From a virus, in IMG/VR virus record IMGVR_UViG_3300030104_007226, positions 1,989 to 23,863 of that record: a DNA stretch of 21,875 nt. One strand, given 5' to 3'. Each line of letters begins with the position of its first letter. The stretch's first letter is position 1. Position numbers and translations under genes: made by a program. Under the pieces are notes generated by a model. It was not told the origin of the DNA and did not search any database. It saw nothing but the letters and a program-made list of their open reading frames with translations. This document shows, in pieces, positions 6,054 to 21,202 of the stretch.

Positions 6054-8321
6054 ATGGCAAATCCTATAATTTTTTGGACTCAACCACTAGATTCACCAGC
6101 TACTATTGATGACCCACACATTCTTAGGAATGATTTAGTTACTATTTCTAGGAAGGCACCATCAAGTCCAGCAATTCCTGGCGTAACTGCAGGGGCATAC
6201 TATGCTCAATTTAATGATGTTGCAAGAACAATTAATCCTGCAAGAGATGCAGTTTCAGAATCGGGAACCTTCGGTACTCCTGGCTATGTTGCTGCTTCAC
6301 CCGCAATTCCTGCAAATACACAGTACACTTATACGGATGAAGGTAAGATAGGTTTAGATGGTGGAGTATTTGAGTTATTACCATTTTCGTCTGGGGTGTC
6401 TCCTGCAACAACAGTTACATTTACAGATTTTGCTGGTACTGGTGTTTCTGGTTATCCAAAAACTTATAACAGTAATGATGGTAGTCCACAACAAACTGGT
6501 ATCCCATTGTGTGGTGGAACTGCAAACATAGAAGTACAAACTTCTTACAGTATTGCACCAATGTCAGTTGCACCTGTTTCTGGCGGTACGTTTGGAACTG
6601 CTGCAACTGGTGCAAGTGAATCTCCTGGCGGAACAGGAGAAAGTCCAACTGTAACTCCTGCCAGAATAACAGCAAATCCTTGGACTGCATATTTTGGAGA
6701 TACAACTGGACCTACAGTTACAAGATTTTCAGTTGATACATCAGTCACTAGTGTAGGTGGTGGTGTAACTAATCATGGTCCAGAAAATAGAATATCTGAA
6801 CTTTATACAGTAGGTGGCACTTATCATAATGGAACTCAAGTTTATGATGTTCACAGAGGTTCAATTTTATTCGATGTTGTTTCGGATACAGAAGCAGAAA
6901 TTAGAGGTGGTAATGTCACACAAAGTAAAACTGGTACAGCAAGTTGGGCAGCAGGACAAGATAGAACATTAACAGTAACAACAAGTGGTGCACATGGACT
7001 TACGGATCAATATAATAGAGTTTACATAACTGGAGCTAGTAACAATGCAATGAATGGATTATGGAATGTTGCAACAGTTACGAGTGATACACAATTTACT
7101 GTCAAATTATTTGCAGCACAATGTGGTCCTGCTGCAGTTACATCATCTGTCAATGTGGTTACCTATGATGGTATTGATAAAAAGGGAGGTGTATTAAGAC
7201 AACAAACTGGAACTATTAATACGATACAAAAAGTTGTAATATTAAGTCCAGCTTCTGGAACTGGCCCATCTGCTACTCCAGCAACACATAGTATCAACTA
7301 TAGGTACACTGGTTCTCACGGATTAGGTTCTTCTGGAACTGTTAATGTATCCGTTTCTGGTTCAGGACTTGCAAGTGGTACTCATGGTTCTAATCCAATA
7401 CCTACTGGTGATTTTACTGGTGCTGTCACTATAGATAGTGGGACACAATTTACAAGATCAGTTGCTTCAGGACTTGCAGGTGCTTCTGGTACTGTATCTG
7501 GAACTGTATCTACTCTTGCATCTGGTTTGAGTGCAAAAACATTTAATGCAGGTAATGACCTTGAAGTTGTTGCTGGAGGTATGTTTGGAAACAATCAAGT
7601 CATATTGAGAGGAAATGTTTCAACAACCAGAGGCGTAACTTACAGTTTTCATGGAAATACTACTTCAAGTCAGGTAAGTTCTATTTCTTTTACTGGTTCT
7701 ACTAAACCAAAAACATTATTTTATGATGCAGGTTTTAGGTTAAATAGTACTACAGGGCGTGTTTTTACAGAGGGAGCTCCATCAACTCAACCAAGTGGAA
7801 CTGATGGTATGCCGGATGGATTTGACCCAAATAATAATCCGAATGGAGGTGTTAAAGAGATTGATAGTTGGTTACCAAGGTCTATGCATGCCAAGGCCAA
7901 AGCATTAGAAAGAAATGATGTAACAGAGTTATTAAAAGCAAATACTTCTGGACAACATCAATTGGATCAAATGTTAAATTCTCCTATGGTAGATGCAAGT
8001 GAAAATCTTACTACCTTGATGACTCCAAGAGAACAAAAAGAAGAAACTTGTTGGTTTACTCTTAGAGCATCTAAAAATCCTAATCACAGGAGAGTAATAA
8101 CCAATATAGAGAATGAAGATTTCATAGATAGACAATTTGGAATCAAAGTATATACAAACATGATGAGTGATAGGAATGAGATAATTTTAGATTACATTGA
8201 TCCATCAAATACACCAGAAGTTGCAAACACAGATACTGCATTTGTTGCAAATGGTGTACCAATCACGAACCAACAACATTTAGATAATGGATATGCAAAT
8301 GGAAGTTTTACAAACCAATAG
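6054..8321 (+). CDS. Unknown virion structural protein, 755 residues, between hub and spike tip
   Basis: I do not recognise a named T4 counterpart. The start follows AGGAG (6045-6049), with only 7 bases after gp5. The N-terminal 100 residues contain two SPAIP segments (about 38-42 and 82-86). The middle is Gly/Ser/Thr-rich, apparently all beta, and holds two 'HGL' modules: around 303-353 (SGAHGLTDQYNRVYITGAS to VTSDTQFTVKL) and around 411-477 (YTGSHGLGSSGTVNV to IDSGTQFT). The C-terminal part, from about residue 598, is different: charged, mixed helix/strand, with WLPRSMHAKAKALERNDVTE, CWFTLRASKNPNHRRVITN and EDFIDRQFGIKVYTNMMSDR. It ends in an Asn/Gly-rich tail. Its place between gp5 and PAAR, inside the hub cluster, suggests a baseplate or hub-associated component. 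It could instead be a short fibre. Confidence 0.8.
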   Translation: MANPIIFWTQPLDSPATIDDPHILRNDLVTISRKAPSSPAIPGVTAGAYYAQFNDVARTINPARDAVSESGTFGTPGYVAASPAIPANTQYTYTDEGKIGLDGGVFELLPFSSGVSPATTVTFTDFAGTGVSGYPKTYNSNDGSPQQTGIPLCGGTANIEVQTSYSIAPMSVAPVSGGTFGTAATGASESPGGTGESPTVTPARITANPWTAYFGDTTGPTVTRFSVDTSVTSVGGGVTNHGPENRISELYTVGGTYHNGTQVYDVHRGSILFDVVSDTEAEIRGGNVTQSKTGTASWAAGQDRTLTVTTSGAHGLTDQYNRVYITGASNNAMNGLWNVATVTSDTQFTVKLFAAQCGPAAVTSSVNVVTYDGIDKKGGVLRQQTGTINTIQKVVILSPASGTGPSATPATHSINYRYTGSHGLGSSGTVNVSVSGSGLASGTHGSNPIPTGDFTGAVTIDSGTQFTRSVASGLAGASGTVSGTVSTLASGLSAKTFNAGNDLEVVAGGMFGNNQVILRGNVSTTRGVTYSFHGNTTSSQVSSISFTGSTKPKTLFYDAGFRLNSTTGRVFTEGAPSTQPSGTDGMPDGFDPNNNPNGGVKEIDSWLPRSMHAKAKALERNDVTELLKANTSGQHQLDQMLNSPMVDASENLTTLMTPREQKEETCWFTLRASKNPNHRRVITNIENEDFIDRQFGIKVYTNMMSDRNEIILDYIDPSNTPEVANTDTAFVANGVPITNQQHLDNGYANGSFTNQ

Positions 8322-10750: not shown

Positions 10751-11143
10751 ATGCCGACTTACACTAGAACTTACAAAGATTTAGATTTGGATTTTACAGC
10801 AAATCCAATCACAGGAGATGTAGCTACAGTTACGGATGCAACATCAATCAAGAGAGGCATACGAAATATACTTCTAACGGAGAATCAAGAAAGACTGTTT
10901 CAACCAGAAGTTGGTTCTGGATTGAAAAATTTGTTATTTGAACCAATGACAAATATCACTACTCAATTACTTGAGGATGAAGTGAGAAATGCCATTGAAA
11001 GTTGGGAAGGTAGAGCTGAAATTGTAGAATGTATAGTGACGCCGGAAGAAGACCTTAACAGATATAGAGTTGCTGTAACATTTACAATTGTGAGTCAAAC
11101 GGACGAACAGCGACTAGAAGTATTCTTATCCAGAGAGAGATAA
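10751..11143 (+). CDS. 25: Baseplate wedge protein gp25 (GPW/gp25 family)
   Basis: At 130 residues this matches T4 gp25 (132). The family core is clear: SIKRGIRNILLTENQERLF then QPEVGSGLKNLLFEPMT, containing the conserved FEP segment (the EPR-like motif of the family), then a helix LLEDEVRNAIESWEGR and a final beta pair. gp25 sits at the wedge core with gp6 and gp53 and contacts the first ring of tail sheath. It has a lysozyme-like name in old annotations but no visible catalytic site here. GGAG at 10743-10746 sets the start. Three bases separate it from gene 6. Confidence 0.93.
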   Translation: MPTYTRTYKDLDLDFTANPITGDVATVTDATSIKRGIRNILLTENQERLFQPEVGSGLKNLLFEPMTNITTQLLEDEVRNAIESWEGRAEIVECIVTPEEDLNRYRVAVTFTIVSQTDEQRLEVFLSRER

Positions 11144-11146
11144 CAA

Positions 11147-13024
11147 ATGGCAGATGTTTCTTCAAAATTAAAGGTTTCGGAATTAGATTTTGATACTATA
11201 AAATCCAATCTCAAAAATTTTTTGAGTGATCAGAATGAATTTGCTGACTATGACTTTGATGCATCGGCTATGTCTGTTCTGTTGGATGTTCTTTCCTATA
11301 ATACTCATTACAATGCATTCTATTTGAATATGATTGTCAATGAGATGTTTCTCGATACTGCATCAATTAGGAACTCAGTAGTATCAAGAGCCAAACATCT
11401 TGGATATACACCACAATCAGTCAGGGGTGCAAAGGCATACGTTGATCTTACAATAACTCCTGCAGACACACCCTCAACAATAATTATAGCCAAAGATACT
11501 CAGTTTGCATCTTCAGTGAATGGTATATCTTACATTTTCAGCACCACAGGGTCTACTACTTTAAATGTAAATTCAAATGGAGTTTACACCACTGCAAATG
11601 TTGAGATAAGTCAGGGTGTTCCTTTGACGCATCGTTATACTGCAAATACAGAGAATCCAGATCAAAGATTTATTCTTCCAAATGCAAATACTGACACAAG
11701 CACCTTGACTGTTAGGATTCAGACTTCTGCAGAAAATACCAATGTTTATACTTATACTATTGCAAATGATACAACTACAGTTTCATCAACATCAAATGTG
11801 TATTTTTTAGAAGAAGCAGAGGATGGTAAATATGAGGTCATCTTCGGTGATGATGTCATAGGTAGAAAACCAGTAAGTGGAAATATTATCTTACTTTCTT
11901 CTCTCATTGCAGATGGTCAAGATCCAAATGGTGCCTCAACATTTAATCCAGTTGGATCAGTTGGTGGTTATTCAAATGTCACAGTTTCTACACTTACTTC
12001 AGCTTCAGGTGGTTCTCTTAGAGACTCAATCAATAAGATAAAATTTAATGCACCAAGGAGTTATCAAGCTCAAAACAGAGCCGTAACGATTAATGATTAC
12101 AAAAGAATACTTGAGAGAGATTATCCTGCTGCAGAGGCGGTGGTTGCATGGGGCGGTGAAACAAATGATCCCCCTGTCTATGGTAAAGTATATCTTGCAA
12201 TCAAACCAGCATCTGGACTTACACTCTCAACTGCTACCAAAAAATTTATCAAAGATACAGTCTTGGCAAATAGGAATGTTGTGTCTGTAACCCCAGAGGT
12301 TACAGATCCAGACTATTTGTATGTCACAGTAGATACTACCATAAAATATAATTCAACGAATACCACTCTGACAGCAGCAAGTATTGAATCTTTATTGACT
12401 AATACTGTTTATCAATATGGCCAAACTGATTTGGGGTCTTTTGCAGATCAATTTAGATATTCCCCATTGATAAAGAAAATTGATGAAACTGAGTCTGCCA
12501 TTGAAAGTAGTTTGACAACAGTTAAATTAAGAAGAACTTTCACACCTACTTTGAACGTGGCAACTTCTTATACTTTAAAGTATTCAAATAAAATTCCCAC
12601 AGTGAATGGTATACCACAGATTACAAGTACTCAATTTTCGCATGTAGATGATAATGGTACTTTAAGGACTAATTGTGAACTACAAGATGCAAATGGTGTA
12701 CTTCAGGTTTTTAGAACATCTGGATCTGACAGAATAATAGTTGCAAATAACGTGGGTACAGTTACTTATAATTCTGGAAATGTTGCTTTGACTACTTTCA
12801 AACCAACAACTATCACAGATGGAACATCTAATGTTAGTATTACTGTTACATTAGATTCAAATGATATTACCCCATTGAGAGAGCAAATTCTCCTTATTTC
12901 AAATAATGATATTTCTATTACTATGATTGATACTGGTGGAACTGGACAAACGACGGCTGTAACGAATACCACATCTTCGACAACAGCCACAGATACGACA
13001 TCAACTTCAAGTAGTAGCTATTAA
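11147..13024 (+). CDS. 6: Baseplate wedge protein gp6 (baseplate J family)
   Basis: This 625-residue product (T4 gp6 is 660) begins MADVSSKLKVSELDFDTIKS and continues DYDFDASAMSVLLDVLSYNT, HYNAFYLNMIVNEMFLDTAS and VSRAKHLGYTPQS, the standard gp6 N-terminal block. The central YFLEEAEDGKYEVIFGDDVI and the NRAVTINDYKRILERDYP segment are hallmark baseplate-J elements. gp6 dimers form the continuous inner ring of the baseplate that holds wedges together during contraction. It ends in a Thr/Ser-rich tail of about 30 residues, a disordered extension absent from T4. The start follows gp25 by three bases, with a weak AGAGAGA as possible ribosome binding site. The stop overlaps the next gene (TAATG). 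Confidence 0.93.
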   Translation: MADVSSKLKVSELDFDTIKSNLKNFLSDQNEFADYDFDASAMSVLLDVLSYNTHYNAFYLNMIVNEMFLDTASIRNSVVSRAKHLGYTPQSVRGAKAYVDLTITPADTPSTIIIAKDTQFASSVNGISYIFSTTGSTTLNVNSNGVYTTANVEISQGVPLTHRYTANTENPDQRFILPNANTDTSTLTVRIQTSAENTNVYTYTIANDTTTVSSTSNVYFLEEAEDGKYEVIFGDDVIGRKPVSGNIILLSSLIADGQDPNGASTFNPVGSVGGYSNVTVSTLTSASGGSLRDSINKIKFNAPRSYQAQNRAVTINDYKRILERDYPAAEAVVAWGGETNDPPVYGKVYLAIKPASGLTLSTATKKFIKDTVLANRNVVSVTPEVTDPDYLYVTVDTTIKYNSTNTTLTAASIESLLTNTVYQYGQTDLGSFADQFRYSPLIKKIDETESAIESSLTTVKLRRTFTPTLNVATSYTLKYSNKIPTVNGIPQITSTQFSHVDDNGTLRTNCELQDANGVLQVFRTSGSDRIIVANNVGTVTYNSGNVALTTFKPTTITDGTSNVSITVTLDSNDITPLREQILLISNNDISITMIDTGGTGQTTAVTNTTSSTTATDTTSTSSSSY

Positions 13025-16000
13025 TGAGAACAGACGGAGGAGCTCTATATACTCAGATAGAGCAACAATTACCAAATTTCATACAACATAATCACTCAAA
13101 GTTTTCTAAGTTTGTAGAGAAATACTATGAGTTTTTAGAACTGAATCTGGTTACATTCAACGATCTTGATCTGAATGAAGATAAACCGATTCAAGAAAGT
13201 GATAATGTAACGTATACAGTTACAGTTGCAACTGGTAATAATGCATACAGTAACTCCGTCAATAAGTATTTTGTCGATGGTGCAGTTTCCCCTGTTCTTA
13301 ATGTATCTTCTGGAATTACCTACGTTTTTGATCAGAGTAATTCTACAAACGAAGGTCATCCTCTTAGAATATCAACAACTCCAAACGGAAGACATACACC
13401 AGGCGGAGAACAATACTCAAATGGTGTAAATGTTGTAGCATTTGGTACTCCAGGCACTGCAGGAGCTCAAACTTCAGTCTATATCAGTCCAGATATAGCA
13501 GGAACTTATCTTTACTATTATTGTAACACACACTCAGGGATGGGTGGTAATGTCGTTATTGCTAATACTACTCCATACATCTCACTTGAAAACGGCAATA
13601 CTGATTCCTCAAATACAAATAATACTTACATTGACCTTGAAAATCCAAATCGTCAGGGTGACCAGTTTTTAAGTGGTGAAACAGTTGAAGGGGCCAACTC
13701 TGGTGCAACTGGTATCGTAAGAGGTAAGTATTCTACTACACAAGCATACATTGAAGAAACCAATAACGGAAACTTTCAAGTTGGTGAAAGAATTGTAGGT
13801 CAAGAGTCAAGAGTTTCTGCAAATGTTACTGCATATACAAGACAAGCTTTAAATGCATCTAGGAATGTCAAATCGTTTCAAGATGTAGACAAAGCACCTC
13901 TTGGTTTTGTTGAGTTATTAAGGAAAGAATTTTTACAAGGTGTACCAAAGGGTGCGTTGGGTAGTAAAGCCAACATGCTCAAACACATCAAAGATTTCTA
14001 CCGAGCAAAAGGTAATGAGGCTTCTTTCCAGTTTATCTTTCGACTTCTCTATGGAAAAGAAAATGTAAGTTTTTATTATCCAAGTACAGACATAATGAGA
14101 TTGTCTGACGGAAGATGGACTCAAAATAAATCTCTTAAAATTGACTTCGATCAGGCAAATAACTTCTCATCCTTTGAGGGTAGATTTGTCAGAGGTTCAA
14201 TTTCAAATGTTGTTGCTCTCATTGAAAGAACAGAGACATATCAAGTAGGTTCTACAACTATATCAGAATTATATCTTTCTAATATTGATGCAAACAATGC
14301 TTCATATAATGCAAATACTGATTCTGGATTTACATCATTCTTACCTAGTGATACAATCACAACAACCACTGCAGACGATGATGGAAACTATGCAACTGCA
14401 CCACTTACTGGTATTCTTGCTTCAGTTGCAATTGATGCAGGTGGGTCAAACTATTCGGTAGGTGATGACATTGCAATATCTGGTGGTGGGGGTGGTAGAG
14501 AAGCTGGTGTTAAAGTTGCTTCGGTATCTGATGCTACAATTAGTGCATTCGACATAATAGATCCCGGCGATGGTTTTGCAGTCGGTGATGGAGTTACGTT
14601 TACGAATGAGGGAACTGGTGGAACAGGTGGTGCTGCCAGAGTTCAAACAATTACTCCAACTGCAAATGTATTTGTTGATACTCTTACAATCAACCCACAC
14701 AAAGAAGATTTACTTAGTGCATCAGCATTTACTGCACCATTACAAGGTGCCACAGTAAATACTCATCTATTTTCAAACTCAACAACTACTTTCTCTGCTG
14801 GTCTTACTGGAACTGCACCAAAGAAAGGTGATCTACTTTTTGAGTTGAGTATCAGTCAATTATTGGCAGAATCTGGAAATGATGGTGGTGGAACCTATGG
14901 TGGAGGGACACTTACTACAGAGACAGGTGGAGGTGTTAGAAGATTTGATATAGAATCAATAGCTGATGATACTAATTACAATGCCAATACTGCCAAGTTT
15001 GGAACAGTCGTTTCAGTAGATACCACAACCACACCAAATACTGTAATCTATGCACTTGGTTCGATTGTTGTTGATACAGTCACAGGAACAAGAACTATCA
15101 GAAACTTTGAGAATACAGAAACAGTATTTGTCTATGATACTCAGAGAGATGAAACTGGTTCACCTGCAGCGGCAAATGGATATAATGCCGTATTTTCTGA
15201 TACTGGTGCCAATGTAGTCTTTGCAAATACTCCTGCAGCCGTATCCTCGAACACATCTCATGGTGCATTGGCAGGGACTCTCAATGAAGTAGAGATTGGT
15301 GGTATTCGTTCAATACAAGTTCTCTCATCTGGACAAGGTTATACATCCATACCAGTTGTTGAGATTGCAAATACTAAAATAGAATCTTTCGGTAATGCTC
15401 CAGATAAGGTGGGAGCTAATTCTGTATTCGTAACTCTTGCATCTGCAATAGCAAATCAGTTTACTTCAAACACGATTGTCAAAAATCAAAGTAATTCTGC
15501 TTCAGGCATAGTTCTTGGGCCGATAATTTCAAATACTGCTTTGGTTGCAACAGGAAATACTGTACTTAGAGTACAGATGACAACCAGTAATAATTTTTCT
15601 GCAAGTGATACTCTTACAGTATATACAAATAATGCTGATGAAAACCCAGTAGGTATTGGTGACTTCGGAACTGCAAATGCAACAACATCTGGTGCCACGG
15701 CTACGTTTACTCAAGCGGATCATGGTTTTACAGCAGGACAAAGAATTGTTGTAACTGGTTCAAGTTCTGGGACAGATGCAACTGTATACAATAACAACCA
15801 CACTATTGCAACTGTATCGAACACTTCTACGTTCACAGTTACTTTTCCTTCAACTCCTAGTGATACGAGTGAGTCAAATCTCAGAACAAGAAGAGTAATT
15901 TCTGCAAATGTGGCAGGATCTAACTCAGTTTTTGCAAATACTGGAGCCGCTGGTAATAATGCATCTATTGCGATTTCATCTATTGCTATTGGTGCAATTC

Positions 16001-19000
16001 AGTCGGTAACGATATTCAACTTTGGTGCAAACTATACATCAGCTCCAACTCTTGATGCCTCAGGTATTGGTGGTGGAGATGCAACTTTGACTGCATCCCT
16101 TGGAGCTCTTGCAGAGTATGATGGTTTCTTTGATGGGGCTCAGGGATTATTGAGTGGTCAAAATAGGATGCAAGATAATTTTTATTATCAAGACTTTTCC
16201 TATGTAATTAAGACGGACATAGATACTGCAACTTATCGTGACCAAATTCTGAATCTTGTACACCCTTCTGGACTAAAGATGTTCGGAGAAGTGGTGATGT
16301 ATTTGAATGCTACTGCAGGATTGATGAACTCGGCAGCAAATACAATCAACCACATACAAGCAAATACGGCGCTTACTGGTGGGTCAGTCAATGTTCCAAA
16401 TTACAGAGTTCATGAAATTACAATTGCCAGTCAGAATACTGCATCATCTAATGTTCAAATTTCAGTACAAGCTTCACTTTTCAGACCAGCTGTTGTATCA
16501 CCACCGATTGATGCACGAGTAGAGTTTCCACATATCAACTTTGATCTGATACTAGAACAATCAAATGCCGGTATTGCTTCAGAAGGAGCACAAGATACTA
16601 TTGGATTTGAAACAGATAGTGGTGAAGGTAGTATTCTACTTGATGATGGTTTCTCAAAAATAAGATCAGAAGAATTTGAAGTTTCTTTCATACAAGAAGA
16701 TGAATCAAATCTTGAACTTGAAGTGGCAACTGATGGTTCAAGAAACTATCTCTTATCAGAACCGATTGTAGAAACTACACAGATAGTTAGTGAAGACGAT
16801 CACGATGTATTCAATATTCGTTTAGAAGAAGATGGTAATGATTATCTAATAGAGCAAGAAGGAACTGAATACGAATACATTCTTTTTGAAGATGAAGGTA
16901 AAGTGATGGGTATTGATTATGCCCAAGAATCATTGAGGTTGACTTTAGAATCTGATGTTGTTGTACAAGATGAAGATCATTTTATAGTCATTGATAGGAC
17001 ACACTCAGATGGTTTCTTGATGCCACAGATTCAGTTTCCAGAATCAGAGACAGGAGCTGTTCAGATTGATATGGGTTATGGTACTCAACTGAAACTTGAA
17101 GATGATAACTATCTACTCCTTGAAAGAACTGAAGGAATGTTCCCATTGTATTTGGCAATGGAAGATTCAATGCAAGATGAGATTATTGTCGGAACTCAAA
17201 TTCAAATCAATCCGATTGCTCATCCAGATCCACCAGTACAACCATTTATAGTCTCAACTGTAGACGAATCAGATTCTGCAACTCCTTATGAAGAACAAGT
17301 ATGGATTGCTGAAACTGGTGGTGAATTAGTAGAATTAGAAGACGATGATGGAGGTCATTTACTCCTTGAGAGTAATTTTCATTTAAAGATGGAAGGTGAT
17401 GAAAATGCTGTAAATAGATTCATCTTTGATTTTGCCACTACAACAAAAGCATCTGCAGTCCTTGAGAATCTTGAAGTCAATCTCCCATACGGAACAGGAA
17501 GGTCTTCTAGTTTTGAATATAAAGCAGAAGGTAATCTCAATGTCACTATGGGTGAAGAGTTTGAACTCCTTGCTGAAGATGGTAGAAAATTTGTAGAAGA
17601 ATCTGTTCCTGACGATTTGGCAAACCTTACTACAGAAGATGGAGACATTTATCTTCTTGAACAGTCTTATCTGAGTAATCAACAATTTGCAATAAATCGA
17701 GCATCTGATACTACTGCAGAGATGAGAAACTTTATTGCTGCATCTTATGATAGAAAACCAAGTATCACAGGTACAGGCACAAACTTTGATTCTGATTTTA
17801 ATGCACCAATCGTTCTTGAAGATGATGATCAGACATTGGTAACTGAGGGTCTAGATGCAGACTTTAGATTAATTCGTGAACACAGCGAATTAGGTGTTCA
17901 ACCTTTTGGAACTGAACATTCTGATAATGCAACAACTTACATTACTCTTGAAGCACATACAACGGATGGTGATCTTATTCTGATTGAAGGTGATGATAGG
18001 ACATTTATTCCAATTGAATTGGAGACAGCAACTGGTGGCGGTAATCTTGGACTTGAGGTTTCAGAATTTAATTCAAACAGAAGACTTATCTATAACGATT
18101 ATCTTGATGTTATTATTGAAGAAGAATTTGTGGCACTTGAGGAAGATGATAGAATCCTCATGGAAGATTATGTCTCTGGTGATCCCGAATCATATAAGAC
18201 AGAGGGTGGAGATAATCTTGTATTAGAACATTTGAATGACAATTTGGCAACAGAAGGTGTCACGGGTATATTTCATATAACTTATGATCTCAAGATTGAA
18301 GACTTTACAGCAAGTGTGGCTCTTGAGGATAATACGAGTGTAATGCTTGAGTCTCATACTCCAACTGGAATTGGTGATATACTCCTTACTGCAAATGGTG
18401 ATAGATTGATTCGTGAAGATGACTCTGGTGAAGATAAATTTTTTCTGTCAGAAACATCTTATGCCAGAACTTATGCAAATGCAACAATTACTGTAGTTGA
18501 TGATAATAGGAAAACTACAAATGCTACAAGAAATTTATTATCTAGTGTGGCTGGAGATACGGATGACAATTTAGTTGCAGAAGATGGTAGTAATCTCGTA
18601 ACTGAAACTGGACAAGATGTTCCAACCACATCAGAGATTGAAATAATCGGTGATGTCTTTCCTCATGGATCAGATGAATTTGCCAGAGTGGTATTTGCAG
18701 ATGGAGATACTGCAGAAATTGTCAGTAGAACAAATGATTACCTTTATAATGTAGACTATGGTGCAATCTTGTTAGAAGATGACCCGATAACTGGAGCAAC
18801 AGAGTATCTGCTTGATGAACCTTCTGGTTCTAAGATAATTAGAAACTATGGAACATCTGCTCAAAACTATAGACTTGAATATGGAAGACATAATCAAGCA
18901 AGTTCTATCAATCAGACTGATAGAGTTATGAAGACAGAGATTGGAACTACAGATACAAATAATGCTGGAAGAGAATACCAGTTTACCATCAATGGAATTA

Positions 19001-19434
19001 CTACAGATGGAACAACTCTTCCAAACTTACATGAATGGTCTGAGATTCATGGAGACAATGTTGTAATGGAGGATGGAGCAAACATTCTCACTGAGGATGG
19101 TGAAGTTGGGCAAGATCCAAATGCCATACTCCTTGAGTTTGAAAATGTATTGATGTCTGAAAATACAATAATAGAAGAAGCAATTCTCGATGAGGACGGA
19201 GGTAATATAGTATTGGAGGACGAAAGTGATGATAGTGAATACCTCACCTACGAAGAAAATGAACATCTTGAACTTGAAAGTTTTGGATATAATTACAAAT
19301 TACTCAATATGGAGGGTGGAAAGTATAGAATTGACTCTATAGCAAATAATACTTTCATGAAACTAGATCAAGAAACTGATCTGTTTACTAATGCACCCTT
19401 CCGTGTCAATCATTTAGAACAGGTTCCATCTTGA
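13024..19434 (+). CDS. Giant 2136-residue baseplate wedge protein (gp7 position) with cupredoxin insert and acidic repeat extension
   Basis: The protein lies between gp6 and gp8, where T4 has gp7 (1032 residues), but is twice as long. Its order is: helical N-terminus (1-45, ALYTQIEQQLPNFIQHNHSK); cupredoxin-like domain (62-182; H112, C167, H170, M173); SGATG module (211-275); a conserved core block (281-376: GALGSKANMLKHIKDFYRAK, FIFRLLYGKENVSFYYP, DIMRLSDGRW); paired Gly-rich G-x-x-Y modules (467-545) and further copies near 760-790 and 1000-1030; an HGF module (893-944); a second conserved block (1028-1103: NFYYQDFSYVIKTDIDTATY, LVHPSGLKMFGEVVMY); then an acidic repeat extension (about 1169-2120). 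The two conserved blocks recur, from memory, in marine T4-like wedge proteins. Only one cysteine, C167, is visible. The gp7 role is inferred from order; direct similarity to T4 gp7 is not evident. Confidence 0.85.
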   Translation: MRTDGGALYTQIEQQLPNFIQHNHSKFSKFVEKYYEFLELNLVTFNDLDLNEDKPIQESDNVTYTVTVATGNNAYSNSVNKYFVDGAVSPVLNVSSGITYVFDQSNSTNEGHPLRISTTPNGRHTPGGEQYSNGVNVVAFGTPGTAGAQTSVYISPDIAGTYLYYYCNTHSGMGGNVVIANTTPYISLENGNTDSSNTNNTYIDLENPNRQGDQFLSGETVEGANSGATGIVRGKYSTTQAYIEETNNGNFQVGERIVGQESRVSANVTAYTRQALNASRNVKSFQDVDKAPLGFVELLRKEFLQGVPKGALGSKANMLKHIKDFYRAKGNEASFQFIFRLLYGKENVSFYYPSTDIMRLSDGRWTQNKSLKIDFDQANNFSSFEGRFVRGSISNVVALIERTETYQVGSTTISELYLSNIDANNASYNANTDSGFTSFLPSDTITTTTADDDGNYATAPLTGILASVAIDAGGSNYSVGDDIAISGGGGGREAGVKVASVSDATISAFDIIDPGDGFAVGDGVTFTNEGTGGTGGAARVQTITPTANVFVDTLTINPHKEDLLSASAFTAPLQGATVNTHLFSNSTTTFSAGLTGTAPKKGDLLFELSISQLLAESGNDGGGTYGGGTLTTETGGGVRRFDIESIADDTNYNANTAKFGTVVSVDTTTTPNTVIYALGSIVVDTVTGTRTIRNFENTETVFVYDTQRDETGSPAAANGYNAVFSDTGANVVFANTPAAVSSNTSHGALAGTLNEVEIGGIRSIQVLSSGQGYTSIPVVEIANTKIESFGNAPDKVGANSVFVTLASAIANQFTSNTIVKNQSNSASGIVLGPIISNTALVATGNTVLRVQMTTSNNFSASDTLTVYTNNADENPVGIGDFGTANATTSGATATFTQADHGFTAGQRIVVTGSSSGTDATVYNNNHTIATVSNTSTFTVTFPSTPSDTSESNLRTRRVISANVAGSNSVFANTGAAGNNASIAISSIAIGAIQSVTIFNFGANYTSAPTLDASGIGGGDATLTASLGALAEYDGFFDGAQGLLSGQNRMQDNFYYQDFSYVIKTDIDTATYRDQILNLVHPSGLKMFGEVVMYLNATAGLMNSAANTINHIQANTALTGGSVNVPNYRVHEITIASQNTASSNVQISVQASLFRPAVVSPPIDARVEFPHINFDLILEQSNAGIASEGAQDTIGFETDSGEGSILLDDGFSKIRSEEFEVSFIQEDESNLELEVATDGSRNYLLSEPIVETTQIVSEDDHDVFNIRLEEDGNDYLIEQEGTEYEYILFEDEGKVMGIDYAQESLRLTLESDVVVQDEDHFIVIDRTHSDGFLMPQIQFPESETGAVQIDMGYGTQLKLEDDNYLLLERTEGMFPLYLAMEDSMQDEIIVGTQIQINPIAHPDPPVQPFIVSTVDESDSATPYEEQVWIAETGGELVELEDDDGGHLLLESNFHLKMEGDENAVNRFIFDFATTTKASAVLENLEVNLPYGTGRSSSFEYKAEGNLNVTMGEEFELLAEDGRKFVEESVPDDLANLTTEDGDIYLLEQSYLSNQQFAINRASDTTAEMRNFIAASYDRKPSITGTGTNFDSDFNAPIVLEDDDQTLVTEGLDADFRLIREHSELGVQPFGTEHSDNATTYITLEAHTTDGDLILIEGDDRTFIPIELETATGGGNLGLEVSEFNSNRRLIYNDYLDVIIEEEFVALEEDDRILMEDYVSGDPESYKTEGGDNLVLEHLNDNLATEGVTGIFHITYDLKIEDFTASVALEDNTSVMLESHTPTGIGDILLTANGDRLIREDDSGEDKFFLSETSYARTYANATITVVDDNRKTTNATRNLLSSVAGDTDDNLVAEDGSNLVTETGQDVPTTSEIEIIGDVFPHGSDEFARVVFADGDTAEIVSRTNDYLYNVDYGAILLEDDPITGATEYLLDEPSGSKIIRNYGTSAQNYRLEYGRHNQASSINQTDRVMKTEIGTTDTNNAGREYQFTINGITTDGTTLPNLHEWSEIHGDNVVMEDGANILTEDGEVGQDPNAILLEFENVLMSENTIIEEAILDEDGGNIVLEDESDDSEYLTYEENEHLELESFGYNYKLLNMEGGKYRIDSIANNTFMKLDQETDLFTNAPFRVNHLEQVPS
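13207..13569 (+). other. Cupredoxin-like domain with intact type-1 copper ligands (residues 62-182)
   Basis: The domain runs from VTYTVTVATG to GNVVIANTT within the 2136-residue protein. It contains VSSGITYVFDQSNSTNEGHP, with the first His at 112, and TYLYYYCNTHSGMGGNVVI, with C167, H170 and M173. Type-1 copper sites use His, Cys, His and Met. The C-x2-H-x2-M spacing equals that of amicyanin. Similar YYYCxxHSGMGG segments are, from memory, frequent in marine phage structural proteins. Copper binding is inferred, not shown. Confidence 0.75.
16528..19383 (+). repeat. Degenerate acidic repeat region (residues about 1169-2120)
   Basis: About 950 residues are built of irregularly spaced units of the form hydrophobic-x-hydrophobic-E-D-[D/G]-x-x-[IL]-[LV]-x-E. 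Clear examples are GSILLDDG (1202-1209), LEDDNYLLLE (1358-1367), LEDDDGGHLLLE (1438-1449), IVLEDDDQTLVTEG (1596-1609), VALEEDDRILMED (1703-1715), NLVAEDGSNLVTE (1849-1861) and NVVMEDGANILTEDG (2012-2026). Each looks like a beta-hairpin with an acidic D-G or D-D turn. The stretch is strongly acidic and cysteine-free. The DNA repeats are too diverged to be recent copies. Confidence 0.7.
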
Positions 19435-19441: not shown

Positions 19442-19467
19442 TAAAAGAACAATAACTCACAATATTT

Positions 19468-19472
19468 GGAGG
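19468..19472 (+). promoter_or_regulatory. Strong Shine-Dalgarno (GGAGG) fixing the gp8 start
   Basis: GGAGG lies 8 bases before the ATG at 19481. It overlaps the in-frame TTG at 19466, which would be the alternative upstream start, so translation must begin at the ATG giving MPALVTNKFRIHNAKQF. Confidence 0.85.
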
Positions 19473-19480
19473 ATTTTCTG

Positions 19481-21202
19481 ATGCCTGCTTTAGTAACAAA
19501 CAAATTTCGTATCCACAACGCCAAACAGTTTGTGGAGGCTTTTGATGAGGTGTCCTTCTCTTCGGGCGGTGCAGTCACAGACTCGAGCGGGCTCCTCAAT
19601 TCAAATATGTATCTGTTTATCGGTAAACCAACTGCTTGGTCAGATGACAGTACACCACCATCTCCTACGGATGCCGTAGCCAATACTCACTATGAGAACT
19701 GGCGAGACATGATTGCTGCAAAGAAGATTACAGCTTCTGATGTATCACATTGTATCCCAAGGAAAAACTGGACTAATAATACCAGTTATTTTGCATACAC
19801 TCATGCTGCTGCAACACTTACTAGTCAAGATTTCTATGTCATGACTACAGATTATAATGTATATAAGTGTTTGTCAAATAGTGATACTGCATCTGGTGGT
19901 TCTGTGGCCACAACTTCTACAGTACAACCAACTGGAACTGGAACGAGTATCATTTCAACTGCAGATGGATACAAATGGAAATTCATGTATCAAATCTCTG
20001 CTGCAGATGCACTCAAGTTTGTCACACCAAACTATATTCCTGTTGATACAGTGAGAAGAGCAAATGGATTTCTTGCCAATACTTTTGATAACTCACCAGG
20101 CCAAAATCAATTTGATGTTGAGACTGCAGCCGCTTCTACTGGAAATGGTGCAATTGAAGTAATTCACATGACAAGTAGAGGAGCACAGTATCTTGGTGAA
20201 ACTGGAACTCTTTCTTCTGGTGGAACTACAACCTCATGTACGATTGCTGGTTCTGGTATTGGTTTGAATACTCTTGCAGCTGCTGACTGTATTGTAAATT
20301 CAGACATATACTTCACAAGTGGAGATGCTTCTGGACAGGGTGCAACAATTACTGACTATAATCAAAGTACAAAGGTGGTTACATTCACACCAGCAATTAC
20401 TGCACCATCTTCGGGTAGTACTTATTCAATTGGTCCAAAGATTGTAATCTCAGGTGACGGACAGGCTGCCAATGCAAGAGCAACAGTTAATGCAACTGGT
20501 TCAATTAATGCAGTAACAGTTGTTGCAGGAGGTAATAACTACTCCAATGCTACAATCACAGTCATTGCAAATGCATCACAGGCAAATAGTTATAATCCAA
20601 CTGTTGCTACACTGACTCCTATTATCGGTCCAGCGGGTGGACATGGATCAGATGCAGTTAAAGAATTGGGTGGTTTCTATGTTCTCACAAATGCTCGACT
20701 TGAGTATTCGGAATCGAATAACTTCACAACCAACAACGACTTCCGTAAAGTTGGTATGCTTGCGCAACCTAAGTATGCAAATGGTGATTTTGCCACTGCA
20801 TCAGTTGTGGACCAAGCAACCACAATAGTACTAACTTCGTGGAATGGAACTCAGTATAAAGCTGACGAATTGGTAACAGGTGCAACTTCTGGTGCAACAG
20901 GCAGAGTCATTGATTTTACTGGAAACAATACACTTCGTTTATCAGATATTATTCCATCTGGAAACTCAGCGAATGCAGGATACAATGGCATTTATGGATA
21001 TTTCACAAATTCAGAAGTTATTGCTGCTAATACAACTGGAGCAAGTGGGTCTGGTGCATCAGCCACTGCAAATGGTTCTGGAGCAGTTACTGGTGGAGAC
21101 TTAACAAGGTTCTCAGGTGATATTCTTTATGTAGAGAATCGTTCTCCTGTCACAAGAGCAGCAGACCAGATAGAGGATGTAAAACTGATAATTGAATTTT
21201 AA
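19481..21202 (+). CDS. 8: Baseplate wedge protein gp8
   Basis: The 573-residue product carries the gp8 signature: NMYLFIGKPTAWSDD, ENWRDMIAAKKITASDVSHC, IPRKNWTNNTSYFAYTH, FYVMTTDYNVYKCLSN and GYKWKFMYQISAADALKF (about residues 40-195). The closing RSPVTRAADQIEDVKLIIEF is also typical. In T4 gp8 is a 334-residue dimer that joins gp7, gp10 and gp6 in the wedge. The extra 240 or so residues here are a modular insert: beta segments, a G-x-x-Y module (SINAVTVVAGGNNYSNATIT, about 340-360) and an SGATG module (YKADELVTGATSGATGRVID, about 459-478). The start is fixed by GGAGG at 19468-19472. Twenty-four bases separate it from the next gene. Confidence 0.9.
   Translation: MPALVTNKFRIHNAKQFVEAFDEVSFSSGGAVTDSSGLLNSNMYLFIGKPTAWSDDSTPPSPTDAVANTHYENWRDMIAAKKITASDVSHCIPRKNWTNNTSYFAYTHAAATLTSQDFYVMTTDYNVYKCLSNSDTASGGSVATTSTVQPTGTGTSIISTADGYKWKFMYQISAADALKFVTPNYIPVDTVRRANGFLANTFDNSPGQNQFDVETAAASTGNGAIEVIHMTSRGAQYLGETGTLSSGGTTTSCTIAGSGIGLNTLAAADCIVNSDIYFTSGDASGQGATITDYNQSTKVVTFTPAITAPSSGSTYSIGPKIVISGDGQAANARATVNATGSINAVTVVAGGNNYSNATITVIANASQANSYNPTVATLTPIIGPAGGHGSDAVKELGGFYVLTNARLEYSESNNFTTNNDFRKVGMLAQPKYANGDFATASVVDQATTIVLTSWNGTQYKADELVTGATSGATGRVIDFTGNNTLRLSDIIPSGNSANAGYNGIYGYFTNSEVIAANTTGASGSGASATANGSGAVTGGDLTRFSGDILYVENRSPVTRAADQIEDVKLIIEF

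Follow-up and report, generated by a model that had tools for sequence, protein, structure and literature searches.

Background

Metal sites are known from the tails of bacteriophages, where iron is held at HxH sites in tail fibres (T4 gp37, Alteromonas phage R22Y), and such sites have been proposed for marine phages (PMC11705849). Viral nirK is an auxiliary metabolic gene and not a part of the virion (PMC8115048). In this work we analyze a domain of a phage baseplate protein for which a first-pass annotation had proposed a complete type-1 copper ligand set. Profile comparisons, a structural model and ligand co-conservation make it very probable that the domain is a divergent cupredoxin whose type-1 copper site is intact. 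What is new here is a cupredoxin subfamily in phage virions: a literature search for cupredoxin, plastocyanin-like or copper-binding domains in phage tails, baseplates or virions found no description, and the family libraries searched do not describe it either.

The baseplate gene cluster

The window, by which we mean the whole stretch of DNA analyzed, comprises 21.9 kb out of a 23,863-base IMG/VR virus record. Pfam and PHROG searches identify its gene content as a T4-like baseplate cluster, in which a DNA end protector and a head closure protein on the minus strand are followed in order by tube cap, gp53-type wedge, tail protein, hub-lysozyme, PAAR tip, gp25 and gp6. A 755-aa ORF within the cluster (6054-8321) had no match in the PHROG search. 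A nucleotide search with the window found no phage relative and a plasmid search gave no match; the nearest gp6 proteins among GenBank phages are those of Methylophilales phage Melnitz (42%) and pelagiphages Mosig and HTVC008M (40%). The genes that frame the domain are:

10751..11143, plus strand: gp25, baseplate wedge (PF04965, E 3e-14; PHROG 261, E 1e-45)
11147..13024, plus strand: gp6, baseplate wedge (PF21379, E 2.8e-20; PHROG 219, E 8e-173)
13024..19434, plus strand: baseplate-wedge-type protein of 2136 aa in the gp7 position, directly after gp6 (PF23786, PHROGs, gene order)
19466..21202, plus strand: downstream baseplate wedge subunit (PHROG 438, E 1.5e-106)

The 2136-aa protein matches PF23786 (Baseplate_wedge, E 5.8e-7), PHROG 26741 (E 1e-40) and PHROG 17744 (baseplate wedge subunit, E 3e-38), and the order gp25, gp6 and this gene recurs in Melnitz, Mosig and HTVC008M, supporting its initial designation as a baseplate protein. 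Its residues from about 1200 to 2136 (16620-19434) are very acidic, with 34-50 D/E per 200 residues and few K/R, and contain repeated LxLEDDG-like motifs.

An inserted domain with four candidate ligands

The domain lies near the N-terminus of this protein, with the following features:

13189..13584, plus strand: cupredoxin-like domain, residues 56-187 (AlphaFold2, Foldseek against PDB, profile-profile match)
13195..13656, plus strand: insertion relative to domain-less homologues, about residues 58-211, with approximate edges set by alignment with Melnitz, Mosig and HTVC008M
13357..13359, plus strand: His112 (His57 of the domain), predicted Cu ligand, present in 243/243 Cys-bearing non-redundant copies and aligned with the first copper His of plastocyanin
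13522..13524, plus strand: Cys167 (Cys112 of the domain), predicted Cu ligand, which the model places where the penultimate strand (107-112) ends
13531..13533, plus strand: His170 (His115 of the domain), predicted Cu ligand, whose phi with Cys112 (1.0) is the highest of all column pairs
13540..13542, plus strand: Met173 (Met118 of the domain), predicted axial ligand (Met in 240/243, Gln in 2, Tyr in 1)

In Melnitz, Mosig and HTVC008M the genes after gp6 (874-1016 aa) lack the domain and have a short linker in its place; their products align with the N-terminus of the window protein and again from about residue 212 onward. Likewise, positions 37 to 51 of PHROG 26741 stretch over query residues 40 to 281. 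The nearest contigs (L002-L011) do contain the domain.

All four residues named in the first-pass annotation are present, with the C-x2-H-x2-M spacing of amicyanin, and CxxHxxM occurs a single time across all large ORFs checked. Cys167 is, as claimed, the sole Cys of the protein. The ten neighbouring structural ORFs contain 17 Cys in 4557 aa, from which about 8 would be expected in 2136 aa; one is a low count (Poisson P about 0.003), and the argument drawn from a single Cys is sound for this protein.

Homology to copper proteins

When a profile of 80 relatives was compared with PDB sequences (177,635), 19 of 20 matches were blue copper or multicopper proteins, among them plastocyanins (E 0.0023), pseudoazurin and nitrite reductase, and the plastocyanin ligands aligned in register with those of the domain. 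Comparison of the domain profile by hhalign with plastocyanin/pseudoazurin-type copper proteins from bacterial genomes yielded E 1.2e-5 for this single comparison (probability 81%), and a profile comparison with sulfocyanin-like cellular copper proteins gave no match. Individual relatives also reached described models: 10 of the 80 matched PF00127 at E 0.1 or better (best 1e-4), five PF25489, the At5g54830-like domain (best E 2.1e-4), three the amicyanin model TIGR02657 (best E 1.5e-4) and two the rusticyanin model TIGR03095 (best E 5.8e-5). Homology to cupredoxins is thus statistically supported for the family profile.

The window copy by itself matched no Pfam or NCBIfam family, and a single-sequence search of PDB and Pfam with it found nothing. 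It did not match the amicyanin family model, with which it has the loop spacing alone in common, nor the plastocyanin model TIGR02656, its loop being C-x2-H-x2-M and not C-x2-H-x4-M. A smaller profile of 13 rows had matched mostly antibody chains in the PDB through a YYC motif; we took these matches to be due to chance, and they disappeared with the 80-row alignment.

Predicted fold

AlphaFold2 run on the alignment of 80 relatives (down to 20% identity) returned a nine-stranded model with a pLDDT of 91.6, superseding a poorly folded model from the 13-row alignment (pLDDT 53). Strands 107-112 and 120-125 flank the ligand loop, and the His and Met sit in the loop after the Cys strand. The top Foldseek match in the PDB was rusticyanin (PDB 1rcy; E 7e-4, TM 0.48), with Cu nitrite reductases and multicopper-oxidase-family proteins next; among the 50 PDB matches listed, 49 belong to these three groups and one is unrelated. 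The matches listed have moderate TM-scores (about 0.4-0.6) with an rmsd of about 5-8 A, and only two of them reach E <= 0.001. The domain is accordingly predicted to adopt the Greek-key beta-sandwich of cupredoxins, and from its topology and the alignment we infer that the four ligands converge in space.

Conservation and loss of the ligand set

The fetched loci yielded 361 domain copies, or 262 after reduction to non-redundancy at 90%. Because loci had been gathered partly by a CxxH pattern, two further scans were performed with ligand-free patterns. Both His are present in all 243 non-redundant copies that bear the Cys, with Met (240), Gln (2) or Tyr (1) as the fourth residue. Conversely, the second His is missing from every one of the 18 full copies without the Cys, and the first His from 10 of them, although in some of the 18 the local alignment stops near the second His or has gaps, making the loss less certain there. 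The correlation between Cys and second His (phi 1.0) compares with a median of 0.15 over column pairs, and the ligand set is retained in relatives down to 20-30% identity, more than would be expected by chance.

The ligand-free scans, whose samples overlap, agree with this pattern. The full set was found in 111/117 copies with FDQSDxSN and in 135/140 evaluable sites with GTPGxxGAYT, the remainder of the latter being one HCHY and four sites without Cys and second His; in both samples these two residues are lost only jointly. The co-conservation that the first-pass annotation proposed to test for is observed in the 262 copies and in both ligand-free samples. Homologues that freely lose the Cys or a His, which it had named as contrary evidence, were not seen, since site-less copies are rare (about 3-7%) and lack Cys and second His together.

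Cys-less copies still hold most other conserved columns (Q49 and N54, for instance, in 18/19, counting one truncated copy), and the existence of site-less copies implies that the fold does not need the metal. With one Cys per copy in 235/262, an intra-domain disulfide is not the reason for keeping this residue. The loop varies in length (C-x2-H-x3-M in L014 and L153), as cupredoxin loops do, and in two copies (L236 and L238) Gln replaces the axial Met (HCHQ), the choice made by stellacyanin. On the best tree, which is built from few columns and leaves most forks unresolved, the state of the site changes 11 times, at least four of them supported, implying several independent losses; the supported pairs available for independent-pair tests numbered four, too few to reach significance.

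Six proteins of about 365 aa (L041, L059, L078, L079, L095, L270) begin with a copy that has lost the Cys and both His (YALM, FALM, YTQM) and keeps the fold residues, and relatives of this group (L032, L134, L191) have the full set. A 1019-aa minus-strand ORF (L144) contains three copies, each with a broken set (YSQI, HGGQ, HGNQ).

The proposal of a type-1 copper ligand set in a cupredoxin is supported by the fold model and its copper-protein matches, by the register of the ligands and by their co-conservation, and is qualified by the losses in some copies.

Distribution and carriers

Marine phages carry the domain widely, in proteins of the tail and baseplate. It occurs in 51 GenBank phage records, from phages of Synechococcus, Prochlorococcus, Pelagibacter and Methylophilales, and in at least 577 IMG/VR stretches, in agreement with the statement in the first-pass annotation that the motif is widespread in marine phages; S-TIM5, P-SSM2 and Melnitz are cultured carriers. 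Its carriers are tail fibres, gp9-like connectors, baseplate wedges and other structural proteins; PHROGs 30742, 677, 708, 693 and 27200 cover proteins that contain it (tail fibre, gp9 connector and baseplate wedge). On a contig of a Pelagibacteraceae assembly (L108) it resides in a tail-fibre protein beside an internal virion protein, in a podovirus-like setting. PF00127 copper proteins are encoded by five of eight genomes examined whose assemblies contain the domain.

In Synechococcus phage S-BM3 (L023) the protein that contains the domain is very large and bears the annotation peptidase S8. A copy with the full ligand set was found on a contig of Epulopiscium sp. SCG-B11, from a fish-gut symbiont assembly (L105); its neighbours match unnamed PHROGs only, and the contig is likely of phage origin. 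Among viral models in BFVD, 65 match at E 1e-3 or better, including giant-virus proteins; A0A481Z6J5, A0A481Z7Q7 and A0A481YVH3, modelled beta-sandwich proteins of Pithovirus/Marseillevirus, match by fold.

Proposed role and alternative explanations

The first-pass annotation had suggested stability, binding of host copper proteins or redox sensing as possible roles. The reading we lean towards, with some reservation, is that of a divergent cupredoxin that serves as a mobile accessory module, binds copper after lysis and is thereby rigidified for adsorption contacts. In this T4-like marine phage, residues from about 56 to 187 of the baseplate-wedge protein at the gp7 position would constitute an accessory module with a blue-copper fold, with His112, Cys167, His170 and Met173 as a putative type-1 copper site of amicyanin loop spacing. 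We regard the module as mobile: it forms an insertion in this protein, the nearest homologous genes of named phages do without it, and marine myo- and podoviruses use it again in further structural proteins, including tail fibres and gp9-like connectors. The protein would be made metal-free in the cytoplasm, where free copper is presumably very low, and the site would be loaded with copper once the cell has lysed, either from seawater or at the host envelope. The metal may then rigidify the surface-exposed module, whose main work would be contact, through adhesion or packing, at the baseplate during adsorption; the possible adhesion role is suggested by where the carriers sit. Occasional copies that keep the fold without the whole site fit a scaffold able to work without metal.

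Among alternatives, it is doubtful that the site is occupied by a different metal (Zn, Fe or Cu(I) only) whose chief function is to keep the fold locked. Cys/His/His/Met sites can bind other soft metals, and Zn is more available than Cu in the cytoplasm, where virion proteins are made; nevertheless, spacing and fold match type-1 copper proteins, the choice of Met or Gln as axial ligand is typical of copper sites, and the fold residues outlast the ligand set. We consider a copper Trojan horse, conceived by analogy with iron-bearing HxH tail fibres, unlikely; in this reading the copper-loaded domain at the virion tip would either be recognized by an outer-membrane receptor of the host for copper or a metallophore, or dock to a host copper protein. 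The position of the carriers in baseplate, tail fibre and connector, the PF00127 proteins of five of eight genomes and a published model of tail-fibre iron and Trojan-horse receptors (PMC11705849) would accord with it, but this phage has no known host, no host copper receptor has been linked to the domain, and a single domain is common to phages of very different hosts. We think quite improbable a redox switch or electron carrier, which would act on the baseplate when copper passes between Cu(I) and Cu(II) at the host envelope and so contribute to triggering infection. The ligand set is that of electron-transfer cupredoxins, yet the window ORFs examined yielded no redox partner, unrelated proteins also make use of the domain, and about 3-7% of copies lack the site. 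Very improbable is a metal-free Ig-like adhesion domain with residues kept by descent. Phage structural proteins commonly have beta-sandwich accessory domains, and some copies drop the ligands while retaining fold residues; however, in relatives of as little as 20-30% identity Cys and second His stay invariant together although most other columns have drifted, and Cys is otherwise purged from the 2136-aa protein.

Under the favoured reading of a copper-binding accessory module, many phage particles may carry copper. If copper is bound, a common tail module of marine phages is a metalloprotein that databases label as tail fiber or hypothetical, the manner in which a virion protein acquires copper comes into question, and phage particles become possible copper ligands in seawater. 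It would be a long step from there, and one we think unlikely to hold, to a large share of marine tailed phages with functional blue-copper virion domains, loaded from seawater and aiding adsorption via host copper uptake or copper proteins, with virions forming a pool of copper ligands as proposed for iron.

Comparison with known systems

The domain resembles the plastocyanin/azurin family (PF00127, Copper-bind) in its predicted beta-sandwich and in the register of a His and a C-terminal Cys-His-Met loop. It differs from that family in its longer N-terminal strands, in a conserved FDQSDxSN..HPLRFSTT segment and in its location inside a baseplate protein with no evident signal peptide; it usually has His-Pro where plastocyanin has His-Asn. 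Amicyanin (TIGR02657) shares the C-x2-H-x2-M loop spacing but is a free periplasmic electron carrier, and rusticyanin (TIGR03095; PDB 1rcy) is the best structural match, yet its loop and function differ. The At5g54830-like domain (PF25489), named for a plant protein, is matched by five of the 80 relatives and not by the window copy, and was not found in 14 control genomes. PHROGs 30742, 677, 708, 693 and 27200 contain the same domain, but they are named for its carriers and none is described as copper-binding. As in the HxH iron sites (PMC11705849), a metal site, here a predicted one, is placed in a phage tail component; unlike this domain, HxH sites hold iron by paired histidines and have no cupredoxin fold. 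If copper is bound, it would join iron, known from T4 gp37 and HxH fibres, among the metals of phage tails.
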